A stretch of 30,712 nucleotides of DNA from a virus. The stretch is from IMG/VR virus record IMGVR_UViG_3300001533_001534, positions 1 through 30,712 of that record. One strand, 5' to 3'. Under the pieces are notes generated by a model, which was not told where the DNA came from, did no database searches, and saw nothing but the letters and a program-made list of their open reading frames with translations. Shown piece after piece: positions 2,825 through 30,649 of this stretch; within the stretch, counting starts at the first letter, position 1, and each line of letters starts with the position of its first letter. The position numbers and the translations under genes were made by a program.

Positions 2825-3325
2825 ATGACCCCACGAACATTGACGAAATCATCCCAGGCCAAGCGCTGCGGGCGGCCTGCCAAGGCCAAGGAGAAGACCC
2901 TGGCAGACGTGCTGACAGATCCGTCCGAGAAGCTGGCGGCCGACGACGCGCGGGCAGCGGCAGCCCGGAAAGACGCGGTTATTTACGCCGAGATGCACCG
3001 CATCAAGGCTGCCAACGAGGTGCGCGAGGCCGAACGTATCAAACGCGAGACCGCTGCCATGGCGCCGATTGTACGAGCGGCTGAGGCCATCGCCAGACTT
3101 CCTCGCGCGTGCGGCGTATTTGCGACCAGGGGCAACCGCGTGCGGATTACAGTACCGGGCGGGAAACTTGTCGAGCTGTCGTATTCCGACGACGACAAGG
3201 AGCGACCGATCAAGTTGTACTCGGATTATTACGTTTACCAGGTTATGGCGCCGATGGACGTGAGTACCGCGCTTGATTGGCTTATGCGCACCGCGATTGA
3301 CTTCGGTGTAGGGTTGCCGGAATAA
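2825..3325 (+). CDS. Hypothetical protein, 166 aa, helical N-terminal half
   Basis: ATG 2825 follows ACAGGAGGAG. Residues 1-30 are basic (KRCGRPAKAKEK). Residues ~30-95 are Ala/Glu/Arg-rich and probably a long helix or coiled coil. The last ~70 residues look globular (ATRGNRVRITVPGGKLVELSY followed by SDDDKERPIK and an aromatic YSDYYVYQV block). There is no recognised family. The stop codon overlaps the next start as TAATG, so the two are coupled. Confidence 0.7.
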   Translation: MTPRTLTKSSQAKRCGRPAKAKEKTLADVLTDPSEKLAADDARAAAARKDAVIYAEMHRIKAANEVREAERIKRETAAMAPIVRAAEAIARLPRACGVFATRGNRVRITVPGGKLVELSYSDDDKERPIKLYSDYYVYQVMAPMDVSTALDWLMRTAIDFGVGLPE

Positions 3326-3495
3326 TGCGGTTCTACTGTAAACAGCACAAGATGCGCGTTCGCGACTTCGAGTCGTGTTCGTTGCGCGGCGCGCGTATTG
3401 TTCTGTGCAAAGTCAGGAAGCGGTACCCGTACGCTAAACTGTTCACTGAAGACGGGGCAGATGTATCTAAAAAGAAAAAAGGAGAATCATTATGA
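3325..3495 (+). CDS. Small basic Cys/His protein, 56 aa
   Basis: The start ATG 3325 shares a base with the preceding TAA, and the stop TGA 3493-3495 overlaps the next ATG. Both junctions indicate a real operon member. The product begins MRFYCKQHKMRVRDFESCSL, has a further Cys at position ~27, and ends lysine-rich (VSKKKKGESL). The C-x2-H...C...C spacing could bind zinc, but it is not a known finger pattern. The AAAAAGGAG inside its 3' end also serves as the next gene's ribosome site. Confidence 0.65.
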   Translation: MRFYCKQHKMRVRDFESCSLRGARIVLCKVRKRYPYAKLFTEDGADVSKKKKGESL

Positions 3496-3698
3496 GCGAG
3501 GAAGCAAAGACGGGGCGCACGTTGGGTATTATCAGTCTGATCGCATGGCTGCTGCCGATTGTCGGCATTCCGGTGGCGATCATAGGCATTTTCAAGTCAA
3601 GCGGAGGCAGAAGCCCCGGCGGGTTGTCGATGTCGATTATCGGGCTGGTGCTCGGCATTATCAACGCGATCGTAGGTACGATTATGGCGATGGCGTGA
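3492..3698 (+). CDS. Small two-helix membrane protein (DUF4190-like)
   Basis: The 68-aa product has a short charged N-terminus and two hydrophobic helices, ~11-33 (GIISLIAWLLPIVGIPVAII) and ~45-66 (SMSIIGLVLGIINAIVGTI). They are joined by a Gly/Ser loop with GGRSPGG. This arrangement is typical of DUF4190-type small inner-membrane proteins of unknown function. It is the only clear integral-membrane hairpin in this part of the window. A role in modifying the host envelope, or as a holin-like protein, is possible but not supported by nearby lysis genes. Confidence 0.65.
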   Translation: MSEEAKTGRTLGIISLIAWLLPIVGIPVAIIGIFKSSGGRSPGGLSMSIIGLVLGIINAIVGTIMAMA

Positions 3699-3814
3699 TG
3701 CCGAAGAAGAACCTGTAACCAACAAGAGTCGAGAAACCGGGAGCCGACGTTAAACAAAACGGCCCGGGGGTACGCCTACCACCAAACAGGGGCAAACTTT
3801 ACGAAAGGATAGAT

Positions 3815-4558
3815 ATGAGCGAGAACGCACAACAGAAAGCAAAGCGCCTTCGCGCCGAACTGGCGCTTGCCAAGAAGGAAAGCGAGGGCGCATCCCTGCA
3901 GGAAGCCACCGAGCTTCTCGAGGGCAGAGCGTATGTGTTCAACGGCTATGCGCACCACGCCGTGGCTGTGTCGATCGTGCTGTACAGCGGCGTGAAACGC
4001 GACGCCTTCGGCCTGCTTAGCGCAACGGAGCAGAGCCTGTGCGCCGTGAAATACGAAAAGCCGCTCGGGTACGAGATCCGCCGCAACAAGCTGCGGTACG
4101 CACGTACATTTGCCTCAGCGGGCGTGCTACTAATGGACAGCGTCGGCGAGATGCCAAAGTCTGAGTTCGAGAAGGCCTGGCGTGGTGCGGCCAATCTCGG
4201 CGCCTGCGTGTTCAGGTGGCTGTCTACCGTGTCGGCGGTTAATATCCGCAATACGGAGCCGTATGACCCGGGCAGCGTGCTGCGCGACACAGAAAGCGAG
4301 ATCGACGACATCGACATACCAGTGTTGCATCTCGAGCCGTGTGATTACCGAATGCTTCCGGCGCGGTTCCAGCTGCCGGGGCGCCGGTATATCCTTACGC
4401 CTGCCAGCATACAGGCGGGGCTGGCCGCGCTGCGCGACGAGGAACAGGGTCTGGCGCGGGGCAGTCACTTGTACCAGGTGTGCGACATGGGTTACGTCCC
4501 CGGCATGGCATGGCGGATCGCCAGACTTAGGGCGGCGTTGCAGGCGAAGCTGCCATGA
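3815..4558 (+). CDS. Hypothetical protein, 247 aa
   Basis: ATG 3815 follows a GAAAGGATAG site. The N-terminus is a predicted helix (QKAKRLRAELALAKKESEG). The middle is mixed alpha/beta (AYVFNGYAHHAVAVSIVLYS). The C-terminal third holds LPARFQLPGRRYILTPASIQ and ends in an Ala/Arg-rich helix. No motif or family is recognised and no membrane segment is visible. The stop overlaps the next gene as ATGA. Confidence 0.7.
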   Translation: MSENAQQKAKRLRAELALAKKESEGASLQEATELLEGRAYVFNGYAHHAVAVSIVLYSGVKRDAFGLLSATEQSLCAVKYEKPLGYEIRRNKLRYARTFASAGVLLMDSVGEMPKSEFEKAWRGAANLGACVFRWLSTVSAVNIRNTEPYDPGSVLRDTESEIDDIDIPVLHLEPCDYRMLPARFQLPGRRYILTPASIQAGLAALRDEEQGLARGSHLYQVCDMGYVPGMAWRIARLRAALQAKLP

Positions 4559-17931: not shown

Positions 17932-20900
17932 ATGCCGACGCCTGTGTTGCCCGATAATATGCGCCCGTTTGACGACATGCGGACGGCGCGCAAGTGGCTT
18001 CGTGACGGTACTCTAGACGCGTTGTCTCGAAAGTTCCCTATCGAGGACGACGAGTACAGACTGGAGCTTGCCGATCTGTCTGTGGACGGGCCCGAGGAGT
18101 TCGGCCTGGCCCGGCAGAAGAAAGCCCTGATGCGCGACGACCAGCTTCGGATTCCCATAAAGGGAACCTGGCGCCTCGTCCACAAGCCGACGTCTGAAGT
18201 GCTCGACAGCAAGCAGACCACGGTAATGCACCTGCCCTACGTATCCGATCGCGGCACTATCATCAACGGTGGTAACGAGTACAGCTCGATCAGCCAAATG
18301 CGACTGCGCCCAGGTGTATACGCGCGGCGTAAGAAAAGCGGCGAAGTCGAGGCCATGTACAATATCAAGCCCGGCACAGGCAAGACGTTCCGCACGTACC
18401 TTGAGCCATCGACCGGCGTACTTAAGGCGCATATAGGCCAGGCAAACCTGCCTCTCTATCCGCTCATGAAAGTGATCGGCGCGACTGACGAGGAAATGCA
18501 GCAGGCATGGGGCCAGGATATCTGGTCGATCAACCGCGCGGCCAACGCCAAGGGCGTAATGCAGAAGTATTACGAGCGGCTGGTCCGAAACCGGTTGCCG
18601 GAAGCCTCCGAGCAGGACCAGGCCGACGCCGTGCGCGCTGCCATGGAAGCTGCTGTCATGGACCCTGACGTAAATGCCAGGACCCTGGGACTCGAGAAAG
18701 CCGACAAGCTCACGCCGGCGCTTATGCTCCGCTCTTCGGCCAAGCTGCTTGCCATCAACCGCGGTGACGAAACCGAGGACGACCGTGACAACCCGCAGTT
18801 CAGCGACGTCTACTCGATCGAGGACCACATTGCCGAGCGCGTCGAGAAAGACGCCGGACAGCTTGCCAGGAATCTGCTTTGGAAAGCACGCCGGGACAAA
18901 AGCCTGAAACGCGTCCACCCGGGCGCATTAACGCCTTACGTCCAGTCGTATCTACTCGGCTCCAGGCTGGCCATGCCGCTGGAGGAAACCAACCCGCTGT
19001 CGCTGCTCGAGCAGCTGAACCGTGTTACCAAGCTCGGCGAAGGCGGCATATCCTCCGCTGACAGCGTTACAGACGAGGCGCGCAACGTTAATCCGGGCCA
19101 GCTAGGGTTCCTGGATCCGATCATGGGACCTGAGTGCTATGACGGCGAGACAGAGGTTATGACCGCGCGAGGATGGACACGGTGGCCTGATGTTAATCCA
19201 GGCGACAAGTTCCTGTGTCTTATTGACGGCGAGCACGACTACTGCGACCCTGTACGCCTGGTATCGTCAAAGTACAACGGTTTCATGGTGTCGGTCATGG
19301 GCGCAGGTATCGACTTGCGTATAACCCCCGGCCACAGGTGCTACATACGACCCGTAGGGATAGCCGGGTTCGACTTTGTACAAGCCTACGCGCTGGAGTG
19401 TGAAGATACAGCGCCTTGCGAGTGGCTGTGCAGTGACGACGAGGGCTGTGTCGACGCACCGGTTACGCTCACGCGTCTGAACTACGGCAGCGAGAAGTAT
19501 ACCGGTACCGTGTATTGCGCCACTGTACCCGGTAGCCTGTTGCTTGTCCGCCGTAACGGAAGCAGACCGGTGTGGTCCGGCAACAGCGAGGCTATCGGTG
19601 TTGATACGCGCGTAGCCTACAAGACTTTCAAGGGGCGCGACAAGAAGCTGTACGGCGAGTTTCTTGATAAAGCCGGCAAGCCTGTTTTCATGACGCCTGG
19701 TGACGTGGCCGGCAAGACGATAGCATTCCCGGGACAGATGGCGACGCCCGGTGACATGGCGGTGGCGTCAGTCAACGGGGAAATCAAGGAAGTGCCCAAG
19801 GATAGCGTCGATATCTCTGTGCCGTCGTTTGCTCACATGATGAGCGCCAACGTCAATCTCAACCCGATGCCCACCGCGCTGCAGGCCGCCCGGCAGTTCT
19901 ACGGCGCGAAGTTCTGGGGCCAGTACATGCCGCAGACCCATGGCGAGGCGCCGCTGGTCGCATCGAAGATGCCGGACTCGGATCTGTCTACCGGACAGTA
20001 TTACGGGCGCCGTATCGGCGCGCTTACAACCAACGAGCCAGGCACGGTGACGCGCGTGACCGGCGACAAGGTCGTTGTCACGACAGAGTCGGGCGAGAAG
20101 AAGGAATACGATCTCGTTAAGGACTTCGCGTTTAATCGCATGACTGGCGTGTCGTACCGCTCCGCCGTCGAGAAAGGCCAGAAGCTGGCTGTCGGCGACG
20201 TCGTGGCGCGATCTAATTTCATTGACGACACAGACGAGATCCGGCTTGGCAAGAATCTGAATGTGGCGGTGATCCCGTATAGGGGTCACGGGATAGAAGA
20301 TGGTGTAGTGATCTCGGAGTCCGCCGCGCGCAAGATGGCCACTGACCGGCTATTCGGATTCGATAAGGAAGCACGCAACGGCGTCAAGCTGGGCCGCAAC
20401 AAGTACGCCTCGCTGTTCCCGGACCGGTTCTCTCAAACGCAGCTCGCTAATCTCGACGACGACGGCATTGTCAAGCCAGGTACTATCCTGAAAAAGGGCG
20501 ACCCGATCGTGCTGGCGACAGGGCCGAAGCTATTGACGGCAGAGGATGTCCAGCTAGGCAAGTTGCACAAGGCGCTTCGCAATGCGCACAAGGACATGGC
20601 CGAGACGTGGGAGCACGACTACGAAGGCCGCGTCACTGACGCTGTCCGGACCCGGTCCGGGGCCAAAGTCAACGTGGCCGCGTCCGTGCCTATGCAGGTT
20701 GCCGATAAGACCAGTTCACGGCAAGGCTTAAAAGGTGTTATCGCGTGCTACGACGACAAGACCGAGGTGTTCACAGATCACGGCTGGGTGCCGTGGACTA
20801 AGCTCACGATGGAGTACCGCTTGGCCTGTCTGATTGAAGGCAGGGCGTGCTTCCGTTACCCCGAGAAGCTGGTAGCCTACGACTACGAGGGAGAAATGAT

Positions 20901-23900
20901 ACATGCCGAGCACGAACAGCTTGACTACTGCGTGACTCCAGAACACCGGATGTGGTGCCGTATCGAGCCCTATAGGGGGTGTGAGGCGGAGTACCGCGTA
21001 CGTACCGCGGATGATGTCTACGGTAAATCGGTTGCCCACCTGTGTGCTGCCGAATATGACTGGGACCCGTCCTTAGGGCCGGAGTTCGACCTACGGGGTT
21101 ACGTGGACTACGACCCGGACCGCGAGCGTAAGAAGTCAGAGGTATTGTTTGACATCGTGGATGTCGGTGCCTTCCTTGGGTGGTACATCGCCGAGGGTAA
21201 CGTGGCGTCTTACGAGGGACACGGTACAGGCCGTGGCGGGAACCATGTAACGAGCTATAAGATACAGCTAGGTCAATCTAAGTCCGCCAACCCGGGCAAG
21301 TGCGACGAGATTGCCGCGTTACTGACCAGGATGGGTTTCGGGTGGCTGTATCATGGTAGCCAGTTTACGTTCAGCAGTAAGCCCTGGCACATGCTCTTAT
21401 CGCCCATGGGACTCTGCAAACAGAAGCGGATTCCGGGGTGGGCGTGGGGTATGCCGCGTCCGGCGCTGGAAGCTATGTTTCGGGCTTTGATTGACGGGGA
21501 TGGTAACAGGTCGCGTAGGCGTACTGTGCGCGACAGCCTAAGCTACACGAGTACGTCTTACGGCCTATGCGAGGATGTGGAGCGCCTCGCGACGTTACTC
21601 GGGTATAATGCTAAGATATCCCGGCACGCGCCTAATGGTTATGCTACGCAGTGGTTTGTGGCGTGCAAGGCGTCCTGCGAGTTGGGACAGACTAGCGCGC
21701 GCTTTGTACGCGAGCCCTACAGGGGCACTGTGTATTGCGCACAGGTGCCTGGCGGTCTTGTCTACGTACGCCGGGGAAAGCGCCCTATGTGGTGCGGGAA
21801 TAGTATCATCCCGGACGACAAGATGCCGCGTAATGCCGCTACCGACGAGCCGTATGACGTTCTGCTTAACCCGATGACTATTCTCAGCCGTGTCGCCGCC
21901 GCCGCCCTCATCGAGATGCAGCTCGGCAAAGTAGCCGCCAAGACCGGTAAGCGGTTTGTGCTGCCGCAAGAGGCTCCGGAGGAAGGCTGGAACGCCTGGG
22001 CGCTGCAGCAACTCAAGGACGCCAAAGTCGACGAGAAGGATGCTGTGTTTGATCCGGGGCTCGGCCGCGCGCTGCGTAAGCCGGTCGCCACAGGCAAGCT
22101 GTACATGTCAGCGTTCCACCATCTGGCTGAGAAGAAGCTGTCTGCCCGCGGCGGGTTTGAAGGCGGATTCACGCAAGACGAGTTGCCAGCCAAGGGCGGC
22201 GGCGACGCCGCGCAGGCCAAACGCATGAGCGGCATGGATCAGCTGCAGATGCTCAGCCACGGTGCCAAGGACGTCATGCGCGACGCGCTCGCCATACGGG
22301 GCGCCAAGAACGAGAACTACTTCAAGGCATTGCGTCTTGGCGTGCCGTTGCCGGAACCCGAGACACCATTCATCTACGATAAGTTCATGTCGCTGCTCAA
22401 GGCCGGCGGTATGAACATAGAGCAGAAGGGACACATACTAAGCCTGCTCCCGATGACGGATAATGATGTCGACAGCTTGTCTCGCGGACCCATACGTAGC
22501 GCGGCTATGCTCGACCGCAACATGATGCCGATTCCGGGCGGCTTGTTCGACCCGGGTCGCACCGGTGGCGCCGCCGGCAAAAACTGGTCGCACATCGAGT
22601 TGTCCGAACCGCTGCCGAACCCTGTGTTCGAGGAGCCGATACGACGGCTGCTCGGGCTGCGTGTAAAAGACTATGGGGATGTCATTGCCGGCCGCCAGGA
22701 GTTAAACGGCGCTACAGGTGGCGCGGCTATACGTGACGCGCTGGCGTCGATCGATATAGACGGAGAGATAGACAGGCAGAGAGCATTGGCCAAGTCACAG
22801 CGTGGCGCGAACCGTGATAACGCTATCAAGGCGTTAGGCTACCTCGCGTCTGCCAGGAAGACCGGCGTCAACCCGGCTAGCTGGGTAATGACCAAGGTGC
22901 CTGTATTGCCACCTGTTTTCCGCCCGGTCAGTAAAGCCGGTGATACGACGATAACAGCGGACTTGAACGACCTGTACCGCGACATGATCGAGGTAAACAA
23001 CGCGATCCCGGCGCTGCGGAAAGATTTGCCCGATAGCGCTATCGCCGATGAGCGCGAGGCACTTTACAGCTCTCTGAAGGCCGTCATAGGTCTAGGCGAC
23101 TCTATAACCCCGGAAGGTCGGTCGATGCGGCTCAAGGGCGCGATACGCCAGGTAGTCGGCGACAACCCCAAGCGCGGGCTCATGCAGTCCAAGGTGCTTA
23201 GCAAGCCGGTCGGCATGGTCGGTCGCGGCGTCATCTCGCCCGACCCTACTCTCGATATGGACCAGGTCGGCATACCCGAGGACGGCGCGTGGAAAGTGTA
23301 CAAGGATTTGGTCATCCGGCGGCTGGTGAAGAGCAACTACCCGGTACACAAGGCGCTCGAGATGATCGAACGCCGGGAGCCGCAGGCGAAGAGCGCGCTG
23401 CTCGACGAGATGGCGGCACGTCCGGTTATCATGGACCGCGCACCGACGTGGCACAAGTTCAACCTTATGGCGTTCCGGCCTGTGCTTACCGAAGGCCACT
23501 CGATCAAGATGCCACCGTTACCGCTTAAGGGCTTTACCGCGGATTTCGATGGAAATTGCTTAGATTTCGACACGGAAATTTATCTTGCAATATCAAAGTC
23601 TGCCTTGTATAGTACTCCTGAAGGTCGGGAATGGTTCTCGACTTTTCAACAGGAGAACACAGCTATGGCAACAGGTAACGAGACTGGCACTATTCGGGTA
23701 AATGACCGTACAGAGCACGTCATAAAGATCGGTAAATTCCCGAGAGTCAGACAACCTGTAAAGGATCGCAATGGGGCCGACGTTTACGCGGTGCCACCTG
23801 GCGTTTCTGTATTGAGTTACGATCACGTATCTGGCCGGTCGTGCTGGCTGCCGGTAGACAGGTTCACAGAGGAACACGGCTGCCCGTGTGTCGAGGTCAC

Positions 23901-25299
23901 AGCCGGGCGTAGCCGCAAGGCTGTAATAAGCGACAACGAAAGCCTAGCCGTGTTTGATCCGGCTACGGGTAACCTGGTAAAGCGTGCTCCGCGCGAGGCG
24001 CTGGGTTGCGCAGTGCCGGTAGTGTGGAAAGATGCTACTTACGGCGACGAGTTCGATTCGGATATCGGCTGGTGGTACGGCGTGCTGGTTGGCGATGGCT
24101 GGGTGCGGGATAACATGGTAGGCTACTCGAAGCTGGACGACGGTTGTCGCGCACGGTTTGAGAAGCTTGCCCGAAGCAAGATTCACGAGAACTTCACTTG
24201 CCACGAGTACCGCGATCAGGCGGGAGAGAACAAGCCCAAGTACGGCAAGTCTGTCAAAATACATTTAAACGGAAAAGACTTGCCTAGTCGCGTGTTCAAT
24301 ATCTACGACGGCGGTAAAGGTGCGCTGTACAAGAAGCTGCCTGACGAGCTTTTGTCGCGCGGTTCTGAACAGTGCCTGCTTGGTTTGTTCATGGGTTTGC
24401 TTGATGGCGATTCGAGCGTGACGTGGAATACGACGCTGGCCAGGCCCCGTCTTGCGCTGCGGTTCAATACGTCAAGCCCTGCGCTGGTGCGTACGTACGG
24501 GACGCTGTTCCGCAAGCTCGGTATACGCTACTCGGTGACAACTACGCCGGCTAAAGGCACAAGCGCCGAGTCGTACGTTGTGTGTCCGAGTGTCATCGAC
24601 ACCTACGTGCTCCTAAAGTCGACCGACCTTCGGCCTGTACGTGCAAATGTGGTTGAAGTTCTGGACGCGTTCATGGCTGTGGGGCCTGGCGCGGATGACA
24701 AGGATCTGATCCCCGTTGAACGCGCCTTTGCCGAGGACGTCGCGACTATCGCGTTACGCATGCAGAAGATGTCGTTATACACGATTCTTCGGCGTGCTGC
24801 GACCAAAACGCTGATTACGCGTCCGGTTGTCAACCAGGCACTTGAATTCGCCCGCGCGAACGTGCCCGACGCTGCGCACATTGAGACACTGGCTGCCCGT
24901 GCCGCGCGGAAAGACGTGTTCTGGGAAGCGATAACCGATGTCACCGACGCCGGAAAGCGTGACGTGTACGACTTCGAGGTCCCAGGAACCAAAGTGTTCG
25001 CGCTGCACAACGGCCTGGTGGTCTACGATACCATGAACTTCCACGTCCCGGTCGACGACAAGGCGGTAAAACAGGCGTACGAGAAAATGCTCCCGAGCAA
25101 GAACCTCTTCAGCCTGACTGACCTCGAATCTCCTAGACACGTACCGCAGCAGGAGCTATCACTGGGACTGTATCTTATGACACGCCCACCAAAGAAAGGT
25201 GTGCACGCCAAAGTGTTCAGGACGGCGGCGGAGGCGAAGCTCGCTTACCGGCGTGGCGAAATCGATGCAAATGACCCTGTAGAGATATTGGAGGCGTAG
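17932..25299 (+). CDS. Fused RNA polymerase beta/beta'(N) subunit with three inteins, 2455 codons
   Basis: Removing the three inteins leaves ~1462 residues that follow cellular RNA polymerase order. Beta: RGTIINGGNEYSSISQMRLR (INGTERVIVSQ region), then EARNVNPGQLGFLDPIMGPE (rifampicin-region equivalent), EAPLVASKM, IPYRGHGIEDGVVISE, DKTSSRQGLKG, DDKMP, and the C-terminal MSAFHHLAEKKLSARGG. Beta' follows without a break: LPVLPPVFRP, DLNDLYRDMIEVNN, GMVGRGVISPDP, the ADFDG metal-binding loop (residues ~1870-1874) and HVPVDD. It ends after LGLYLMTRPPKK, so bridge helix and trigger loop must come from another gene. Phage multisubunit polymerases are commonly split; this is a different arrangement, with a beta/beta' fusion. 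Position among virion genes suggests it may be packaged. Confidence 0.88.
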   Translation: MPTPVLPDNMRPFDDMRTARKWLRDGTLDALSRKFPIEDDEYRLELADLSVDGPEEFGLARQKKALMRDDQLRIPIKGTWRLVHKPTSEVLDSKQTTVMHLPYVSDRGTIINGGNEYSSISQMRLRPGVYARRKKSGEVEAMYNIKPGTGKTFRTYLEPSTGVLKAHIGQANLPLYPLMKVIGATDEEMQQAWGQDIWSINRAANAKGVMQKYYERLVRNRLPEASEQDQADAVRAAMEAAVMDPDVNARTLGLEKADKLTPALMLRSSAKLLAINRGDETEDDRDNPQFSDVYSIEDHIAERVEKDAGQLARNLLWKARRDKSLKRVHPGALTPYVQSYLLGSRLAMPLEETNPLSLLEQLNRVTKLGEGGISSADSVTDEARNVNPGQLGFLDPIMGPECYDGETEVMTARGWTRWPDVNPGDKFLCLIDGEHDYCDPVRLVSSKYNGFMVSVMGAGIDLRITPGHRCYIRPVGIAGFDFVQAYALECEDTAPCEWLCSDDEGCVDAPVTLTRLNYGSEKYTGTVYCATVPGSLLLVRRNGSRPVWSGNSEAIGVDTRVAYKTFKGRDKKLYGEFLDKAGKPVFMTPGDVAGKTIAFPGQMATPGDMAVASVNGEIKEVPKDSVDISVPSFAHMMSANVNLNPMPTALQAARQFYGAKFWGQYMPQTHGEAPLVASKMPDSDLSTGQYYGRRIGALTTNEPGTVTRVTGDKVVVTTESGEKKEYDLVKDFAFNRMTGVSYRSAVEKGQKLAVGDVVARSNFIDDTDEIRLGKNLNVAVIPYRGHGIEDGVVISESAARKMATDRLFGFDKEARNGVKLGRNKYASLFPDRFSQTQLANLDDDGIVKPGTILKKGDPIVLATGPKLLTAEDVQLGKLHKALRNAHKDMAETWEHDYEGRVTDAVRTRSGAKVNVAASVPMQVADKTSSRQGLKGVIACYDDKTEVFTDHGWVPWTKLTMEYRLACLIEGRACFRYPEKLVAYDYEGEMIHAEHEQLDYCVTPEHRMWCRIEPYRGCEAEYRVRTADDVYGKSVAHLCAAEYDWDPSLGPEFDLRGYVDYDPDRERKKSEVLFDIVDVGAFLGWYIAEGNVASYEGHGTGRGGNHVTSYKIQLGQSKSANPGKCDEIAALLTRMGFGWLYHGSQFTFSSKPWHMLLSPMGLCKQKRIPGWAWGMPRPALEAMFRALIDGDGNRSRRRTVRDSLSYTSTSYGLCEDVERLATLLGYNAKISRHAPNGYATQWFVACKASCELGQTSARFVREPYRGTVYCAQVPGGLVYVRRGKRPMWCGNSIIPDDKMPRNAATDEPYDVLLNPMTILSRVAAAALIEMQLGKVAAKTGKRFVLPQEAPEEGWNAWALQQLKDAKVDEKDAVFDPGLGRALRKPVATGKLYMSAFHHLAEKKLSARGGFEGGFTQDELPAKGGGDAAQAKRMSGMDQLQMLSHGAKDVMRDALAIRGAKNENYFKALRLGVPLPEPETPFIYDKFMSLLKAGGMNIEQKGHILSLLPMTDNDVDSLSRGPIRSAAMLDRNMMPIPGGLFDPGRTGGAAGKNWSHIELSEPLPNPVFEEPIRRLLGLRVKDYGDVIAGRQELNGATGGAAIRDALASIDIDGEIDRQRALAKSQRGANRDNAIKALGYLASARKTGVNPASWVMTKVPVLPPVFRPVSKAGDTTITADLNDLYRDMIEVNNAIPALRKDLPDSAIADEREALYSSLKAVIGLGDSITPEGRSMRLKGAIRQVVGDNPKRGLMQSKVLSKPVGMVGRGVISPDPTLDMDQVGIPEDGAWKVYKDLVIRRLVKSNYPVHKALEMIERREPQAKSALLDEMAARPVIMDRAPTWHKFNLMAFRPVLTEGHSIKMPPLPLKGFTADFDGNCLDFDTEIYLAISKSALYSTPEGREWFSTFQQENTAMATGNETGTIRVNDRTEHVIKIGKFPRVRQPVKDRNGADVYAVPPGVSVLSYDHVSGRSCWLPVDRFTEEHGCPCVEVTAGRSRKAVISDNESLAVFDPATGNLVKRAPREALGCAVPVVWKDATYGDEFDSDIGWWYGVLVGDGWVRDNMVGYSKLDDGCRARFEKLARSKIHENFTCHEYRDQAGENKPKYGKSVKIHLNGKDLPSRVFNIYDGGKGALYKKLPDELLSRGSEQCLLGLFMGLLDGDSSVTWNTTLARPRLALRFNTSSPALVRTYGTLFRKLGIRYSVTTTPAKGTSAESYVVCPSVIDTYVLLKSTDLRPVRANVVEVLDAFMAVGPGADDKDLIPVERAFAEDVATIALRMQKMSLYTILRRAATKTLITRPVVNQALEFARANVPDAAHIETLAARAARKDVFWEAITDVTDAGKRDVYDFEVPGTKVFALHNGLVVYDTMNFHVPVDDKAVKQAYEKMLPSKNLFSLTDLESPRHVPQQELSLGLYLMTRPPKKGVHAKVFRTAAEAKLAYRRGEIDANDPVEILEA
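19135..19584 (+). other. Intein 1 (mini-intein, residues 402-551) in the beta part
   Basis: Inteins excise themselves and join the flanking protein. This one starts at Cys402 (CYDGETEVMTARGW), has the TxxH motif in LRITPGHRCYIRP, and ends YCATVPGSLLLVRR...VWSGN before Ser552. At 150 residues it has only the splicing domain and no endonuclease. The usual penultimate His is Gly. It interrupts the conserved stretch DPIMGPE|SEAIGVD, equivalent to the ETPEG region of beta. Confidence 0.88.
20746..21801 (+). other. Intein 2 (residues 939-1290) with LAGLIDADG endonuclease
   Basis: It starts at Cys939 (CYDDKTEVFTDHGW), has TxxH in CVTPEHRMW, and ends VYVRRGKRPMWCGN before Ser1291. The inserted DOD-type homing endonuclease shows both helices, GAFLGWYIAEGNV and FRALIDGDGNR. 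It interrupts GLKGVIA|SIIPDDKMP, equivalent to the catalytic-lysine region (GRHGNKG...DMP) of beta. As in intein 1, the penultimate residue is Gly rather than His. Confidence 0.9.
23557..25029 (+). other. Intein 3 (residues 1876-2366) in the catalytic DFDGD loop
   Basis: It starts at Cys1876 (CLDFDTEIYLA) and its C-terminal block reads DVYDFEVPGTKVFALHNGLV...VYD before Thr2367. The DOD endonuclease helices are IGWWYGVLVGDGWV and LGLFMGLLDGDSSV. The last intein residue is Asp instead of Asn, and the residue before Cys1876 is Asn. The mature loop would therefore read ADFDGN-TMNFHVP rather than ADFDGD-TMNFHVP, unless the splice point differs. Confidence 0.85.
23585..23667 (+). promoter_or_regulatory. 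Internal promoter-like and ribosome-site-like sequence inside intein 3
   Basis: TTGCAA (23585-23590), a 17-base spacer and TATAGT (23608-23613) are followed by AGGAG (23651-23655) and an in-frame ATG at 23665 (Met1912). The stretch is clearly more AT-rich than its surroundings, and the protein encoded there (ALYSTPEGREWFSTFQQENT) reads like translated leader sequence. It could allow separate expression of the endonuclease part. Confidence 0.4.
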
Positions 25300-29800: not shown

Positions 29801-29962
29801 TTTTCGCCACACCCCTGCCGCGTGAGGGGCCATTTCGGGGCATTTGCCGCCAAGCTGAAACCCCATCCAACATGAATGGATTGTCATGCTCGAGAGGTCA
29901 CTCTTGTGGAGTCTCACGTCGGTCCCTCCCTGAATCGGCGTAACCGAACAATGGAGTTTGCC

Positions 29963-30649
29963 ATGTTGAAGACAGCCATGATGTCGGCGGTTGCCACCGT
30001 CGCCCTGACCGCCGCCGGGCCGGCCCTGGCCCAGGAAACCACGCCGCCCACGACCCCGCCTGCCCAGACGATGCAGGCGACGCCGCAGGAGGCCGCTCAG
30101 GCTCCGTCTGTGACCGAGGTACTGCAGGCCGACGGACGCTTCACGATCCTGCTGGCCGCGCTGGAACAGGCCGAGCTGACCAGCGTCCTGGAAGACCAGG
30201 CCGCCGTGTCGATCTTTGCCCCCACCGATGACGCCTTTGCCGCCCTGCCCGAGGCGGACCGGGCGCGACTGATGGACCCGGCCAATATCGTCGAGCTGCG
30301 CGAGCTGCTGCTGTATCATGTGATCGCGGCCGATGTGGCCTCTGAACAGATCGTGGGGATGCGCGGGGGCGTTCCGACCGCTGCCGGCGCCGAGGTCCAG
30401 TTCGACGGCACCGGGGATGCCATCCGCGTCGATGCGGCCACGGTGGTCGAGGGCGATATCCAGACCGCCAATGGCGCCGTCTTTGCCATTGATGCCGTTC
30501 TGAACCCGGCAACGTCCCAGGCCGCCATGGGCGACGCGGAAGCGGTCCAGCCGACCGAACCGGTCGAGTCGACGCCGCCGACCCTTCCGGAAGACCCGGT
30601 CGATGAGGCGATGGAGCCGAATGCCCCCCTGCCGACGACTCCGGAATAG
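29963..30649 (+). CDS. Secreted fasciclin (FAS1) domain protein, 228 aa
   Basis: The frame is open from 29876, but GGAG lies six bases before ATG 29963, which also starts a good signal peptide (MLKTAMMSAVATVALTAAGP then ALAQE, likely cut after ALA). A short Pro/Thr linker leads to one FAS1 domain at ~55-190. It shows VTEVLQADGRFTILLAALEQ, the H1-box IFAPTDDAFAALP, the YHV motif (LLLYHVI), and the closing NGAVFAIDAVLNP. The C-terminus is an acidic Pro-rich tail. FAS1 proteins act in adhesion or at the cell surface; the exact role is unknown. Composition matches the ispE fragment, so it is bacterial. Confidence 0.9.
   Translation: MLKTAMMSAVATVALTAAGPALAQETTPPTTPPAQTMQATPQEAAQAPSVTEVLQADGRFTILLAALEQAELTSVLEDQAAVSIFAPTDDAFAALPEADRARLMDPANIVELRELLLYHVIAADVASEQIVGMRGGVPTAAGAEVQFDGTGDAIRVDAATVVEGDIQTANGAVFAIDAVLNPATSQAAMGDAEAVQPTEPVESTPPTLPEDPVDEAMEPNAPLPTTPE

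Follow-up and report, generated by a model that had tools for sequence, protein, structure and literature searches.

A phage RNA polymerase intein family that carries Asn where a catalytic Asp is expected and may convert it to Asp during splicing

The window, meaning the whole 30,712-nucleotide stretch of viral DNA analysed here, encodes on its plus strand (17932..25299) a phage multisubunit-type RNA polymerase polypeptide of 2455 aa, in which β is fused to the N-terminal part of β′ and which is interrupted by three inteins; the product matches Pfam Rpb2_6, Rpb1_1, and Rpb1_2 and NCBIfam rpoB and rpoC. Intein 1 (residues 402–551, window 19135–19584) and intein 2 (residues 939–1290, window 20746–21801; with a LAGLIDADG domain) have ordinary ends, each starting with Cys1 and finishing in Gly-Asn followed by Ser. 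Intein 3, of LAGLIDADG type, runs from Cys1 to Asp491 (491 aa; residues 1876–2366; 23557..25029, plus strand), as delimited by homology to ten loop inteins. A Fasciclin-domain protein (Pfam PF02469; window 29876–30649) adjoins the polymerase genes.

Intein 3 interrupts the catalytic Mg loop of β′, a motif that is common to all multisubunit RNA polymerases and needed for catalysis (PMC4982682). The N-extein ends in ADFDGN (23539..23556, plus strand), the third metal-binding Asp being replaced by Asn1875 (codon AAT, 23554–23556), so that the loop encoded before splicing is DFDGN, as opposed to the DxDGD of multisubunit-type β′. The intein ends in VVYD, with penultimate Tyr490 and terminal Asp491 (25024..25029), the latter being Asp2366 of the precursor (codon GAT, 25027–25029). 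Thr2367 (25030..25032), the putative +1 nucleophile, opens the C-extein, the remainder of which, MNFHVP..., contains the end of the catalytic loop and the end of the subunit (25033..25299). The loop as encoded across intein 3 is thus ADFDGN/CLDFDTEI...GLVVYD/TMNF, and both atypical residues are as the original prediction had described them.

Relatives were gathered by DNA scans of viral contigs for ADFDGN-Cys and ADFDGD-Cys, by a polymerase profile scan, and by intein profile scans; a search with the window intein sequence alone returned no close relatives, and an alignment-based search was needed. The set comprises 66 distinct intein-free polymerases and 35 distinct complete loop inteins, together with one intein cut off by the contig end (L020). 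The comparison with intein-free homologues that had been proposed at the outset was informative: the third loop Asp is present in 66/66, among them a polymerase 56–58% identical to that of the window whose loop reads ADHDGD-TMNF (L002), and the conflict between canonical excision, which would leave ADFDGN-TMNF, and the metal-binding Asp is therefore real. The residue following this Asp varies in the 66 intein-free loops (Ala in 42, Thr in 13, Gln in 10, and Ser in 1).

The arrangement DxDGN/C...(W/Y)D/T occurs in eleven divergent phage RNA polymerase β′ loops from separate assemblies, ten with complete inteins and one truncated; besides the window, these are ten distinct polymerase genes from other metagenome assemblies (nine complete and L020). 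Among isolated phages no relative of this intein was found. The loop inteins fall into three types, which share one insertion site and are homologous. Type III (n = 10 complete: the window, L129, L130, L133, L134, L136, L137, L138, L139, and L140; plus L020) has Asn(-1), Cys1, block B Glu, F:4 Asp, terminal Trp/Tyr-Asp, and Thr+1 in 10/10. Type II (n = 4, at loci L038/L167, L046/L169, L166/L168, and L170) has Asp(-1), Cys or Ser at position 1, block B His (Asn in L170), terminal Asp, and Thr or Ser at +1. Type I (n = 21) has Asp(-1), any of A, C, D, E, F, K, L, Q, or Y at position 1, block B Asp, F:4 Asp, terminal Ser-Asn, and Thr+1. The description of the locus as an Asp/Asn exchange stands in that Asn(-1) and a terminal Asp are both present; a literal exchange of one for the other was rejected, as type II has Asp on both sides.

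An AlphaFold model of intein 3 (mean pLDDT 83, pTM 0.81) matches solved intein-endonucleases, the best being TliVMA (7qss, E 2.1e-20) and another PI-PfuI (1dq3), and the model places intein 3 among the LAGLIDADG intein-endonucleases, with a predicted Hint splicing domain into which a LAGLIDADG domain is inserted. In terms of class, Cys1 (Cys1876; 23557..23559), the putative residue-1 nucleophile, is found in the window and throughout type III, and Thr2367 agrees with the Cys, Ser, or Thr expected at +1 in class 1. Class 1 block B has Thr or Ser at B:7 and His at B:10; in intein 3, where block B was located by alignment as SDNESL (23929..23946), Ser125 fits B:7 and Glu128 (23938–23940) takes the place of the usual His, B:10 being Glu in 10/10 type III inteins. 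These block B residues are highly conserved but not strictly defining, some active inteins being without them (PMC7664689). A class 2 assignment (no residue-1 nucleophile, Cys+1) was rejected on the basis of Cys1 and Thr+1, and a class 3 assignment (Trp-Cys-Thr motif with Cys at F:4, no residue-1 nucleophile) on the basis of Cys1 and of Asp472 at F:4 (in VYDF; 24970..24972). The type III set of Cys1, Ser B:7, Glu B:10, Asp F:4, Asp G:7, and Thr+1 fits a class 1 intein with an altered N-terminal catalytic site.

Intein 3 shares Cys1, the terminal Asp, a hydroxyl or thiol residue at +1, and F:4 Asp with the class 1 inteins that end in Asp, whereas block B Glu for His, penultimate Tyr or Trp, and an invariant Asn(-1) replacing an essential host Asp set its clade apart. 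A Carboxydothermus intein is reportedly the example of such an Asp-ended class 1 intein given by Amitai in 2004. Archaeal PolD (DP2) inteins likewise combine an atypical last residue with a large subunit of a replication or transcription polymerase, but differ in host enzyme, and we know of no Asn-for-Asp exchange in their host motif. The P. abyssi Pol II intein ends in Gln, and the inteins with C-terminal Asp form a described class accepted as splicing-competent (PMC4031507). Asp-ended inteins and inteins without the block B His are thus already known (PMC4031507, PMC7664689); searches of the open-access literature turned up neither a family of loop inteins in phage RNA polymerases, nor an invariant Asn(-1) linked to an intein, nor a conversion of Asn to Asp in the course of splicing.

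The ownership of Asn(-1) was addressed with two trees. On a polymerase tree of 101 sequences, computed with the -1 and +1 columns left out, the 10 Asn rows need 10 changes, at least 8 of which are forced by well-supported branches, and random placement gives 9.7. On the intein tree, type III is a single clade with support of 100/100. Ten changes for ten rows on one tree and one clade on the other show, at the level of phylogeny, that Asn(-1) belongs to the intein and not to the polymerase. Type III inteins are only 24–49% identical among themselves, and none has reverted to Asp, which is one transition away. A pattern search on block B and the nuclease, blind to the -1 residue, recovered four new type III members (L130, L134, L138, and L140), all with Asn (4/4), and the sampling of type III is therefore not merely circular; the DNA scan for ADFDGD-Cys found, among polymerase inteins, only members with block B His. 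Each type is a clade, and the intein tree has a single joint change of Glu128 and Asn(-1); the association of the two residues is therefore not statistically independent, and the joint change is probably one event that should be counted once. In one case (L138, about 3324–4136) a 266-aa type III intein without an endonuclease domain lies in a phiKZ-like RNA polymerase, sampled intein-free relatives of which have Asp, which shows that the intein has crossed between very distant polymerases.

The residue at +1 bears on the splicing register. Thr or Ser is found there in 35/35 intein-bearing genes versus 14/66 intein-free genes (Fisher p 8e-16 with relatedness ignored and with 34/34 intein-bearing genes in the test, L138 being left out). 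Independent pairs give 5.3 in the same direction and 0 in the opposite one, with a median sign-test p of 0.06. Together with Cys or Ser at position 1, the 35/35 count favours the canonical register, in which Thr2367 would be the +1 nucleophile and Asp2366 the last intein residue.

That the Asn follows the intein suggests that either the cell undoes the change chemically or the polymerase works without that Asp. We tentatively prefer the former, with splicing in the canonical register and deamidation of Asn(-1) to Asp by the intein, and give this reading a probability of about 0.43. Splicing would most likely proceed in the ordinary register, Cys1...Asp491/Thr+1, with a terminal Asp in place of Asn, and the intein itself would most likely hydrolyse the side chain of Asn(-1), either ahead of splicing or in its course, such that the mature polymerase regains DFDGD-TMNF. 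The chemistry of type III probably depends on Asn(-1), so that the Asn codon moves with the intein into each new polymerase. Spontaneous deamidation of Asn-Thr or Asn-Cys takes longer than a phage infection allows, and this reading therefore has to assume catalysis; to our knowledge, intein-directed deamidation of a -1 residue is without precedent. Candidate catalysts are Cys1 and Glu128. The latter sits next to the -1/1 bond, on which the block B His that it replaces (B:10) acts in class 1 inteins (PMC4031507).

Intein 3 may, at somewhat less than even odds, represent a class of inteins that edit their host, arriving with Asn for a catalytic Asp and converting it to Asp while splicing. If so, protein splicing would be coupled to amino-acid conversion, and the host enzyme could not be active until the intein had acted. 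All multisubunit RNA polymerases have in common the motif to which the third Asp of DFDGD belongs, and here a mobile element swaps this Asp for Asn in eleven polymerases; either the element carries out a post-translational repair of a new kind, or the demands on the triad are looser than had been believed, and both would be surprising.

The original prediction had named three alternatives, namely that Asn is tolerated, that the polymerase is dead, or that splicing is not canonical, and these are the right ones to weigh. The main rival to deamidation, somewhat unlikely in our judgement, is that splicing is canonical and Asn stays, and that the polymerase is functional, though perhaps slow, with an Asp-Asp-Asn metal triad, in which the side-chain oxygen of Asn can bind Mg. 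This needs no new chemistry; inteins with a terminal Asp are known (PMC4031507), and Asn is carried by eleven lineages. However, homologues with a plain Asn, sought as a potential refutation of the conflict, were found neither among the 66 intein-free relatives (0/66, though Asn is one transition away) nor in a scan for intein-free DFDGN, the Asp version of which matches 40/66 intein-free loci. Nor was a compensating extein change seen: across the 266 + 70 residues examined, nothing else is strictly linked to type III. The columns with a strong link are -1 and then +1, and the others are weaker and as expected from shared ancestry and multiple testing. In E. coli RNA polymerase, substitution of any triad Asp was reportedly deleterious (work of Sosunov, 2005).

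A shift in register, with Asn1875...Tyr2365 as the excised piece and Asp2366 entering the product as the third metal ligand, would account for the movement of Asn with the intein and for the invariance of the terminal Asp in types II and III; in both types DGD would always result. This proposal, the non-canonical option of the original prediction, is conceivable but weak, and we regard it as improbable. The Thr/Ser at +1 and the invariant Cys/Ser1 of types II and III fit the canonical nucleophile positions, in which Asp2366 closes the intein. For an N-S shift at Cys1 only the carbonyl of Asn1875 is available, and cleavage of the Tyr/Trp-Asp bond would be needed without Asn cyclisation, making two unusual cleavages in all. 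The type I inteins, with Asp before the intein and a terminal Asn, share the insertion point of intein 3 and are clearly in the canonical register.

It is likewise improbable that intein 3 no longer splices or that the polymerase is dead or deliberately silent, although the block B His and the penultimate His are lost and one gene holds three inteins. The splicing residues are invariant over deep divergence, including in the two members with a reduced or no endonuclease (L138 and L139). The first two loop Asp residues and the Gly are kept in all type III polymerases examined, as are the extein catalytic residues, and Asn has arisen at least 8 times on the polymerase tree. Median tip length is 0.54 in type III and type I polymerases alike. 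A second β′N copy was sought in contigs of 146–188 kb, and each holds a single copy, with two exceptions in the count: a gene that is divided by another intein, and a further match, short and weak, in the L169 contig. The polymerase of the L138 contig is too divergent for the β′N profile, which has no match there. Misreading or misassembly of codons 1875 and 2366 is refuted in practice, since ten more genes, all distinct and from other assemblies, show the same state.

The loop inteins place three sets of catalytic residues at one site and include 21 without a conserved residue-1 nucleophile, and the family would be useful for testing how mechanisms of protein splicing evolve. The type I inteins (L141, L142, L155, L174, and 17 others) fit none of classes 1–3 and may constitute a separate class, in which Asp(-1) is perhaps used. 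Like class 2 inteins of the Mja KlbA type, they are without a residue-1 nucleophile and have Ser before the terminal Asn and F:4 Asp; class 2, however, has Ala1, Cys+1, and block B His, whereas type I has any residue at position 1, Thr+1, and block B Asp, and intein 3 itself has Cys1. One loop before a type I intein reads MDFNGD, the middle Asp of the catalytic triad being Asn (L148). In two contigs the type I loop intein is frameshifted after about 60 codons (L057/L058, from about 5455, and L158/L159).
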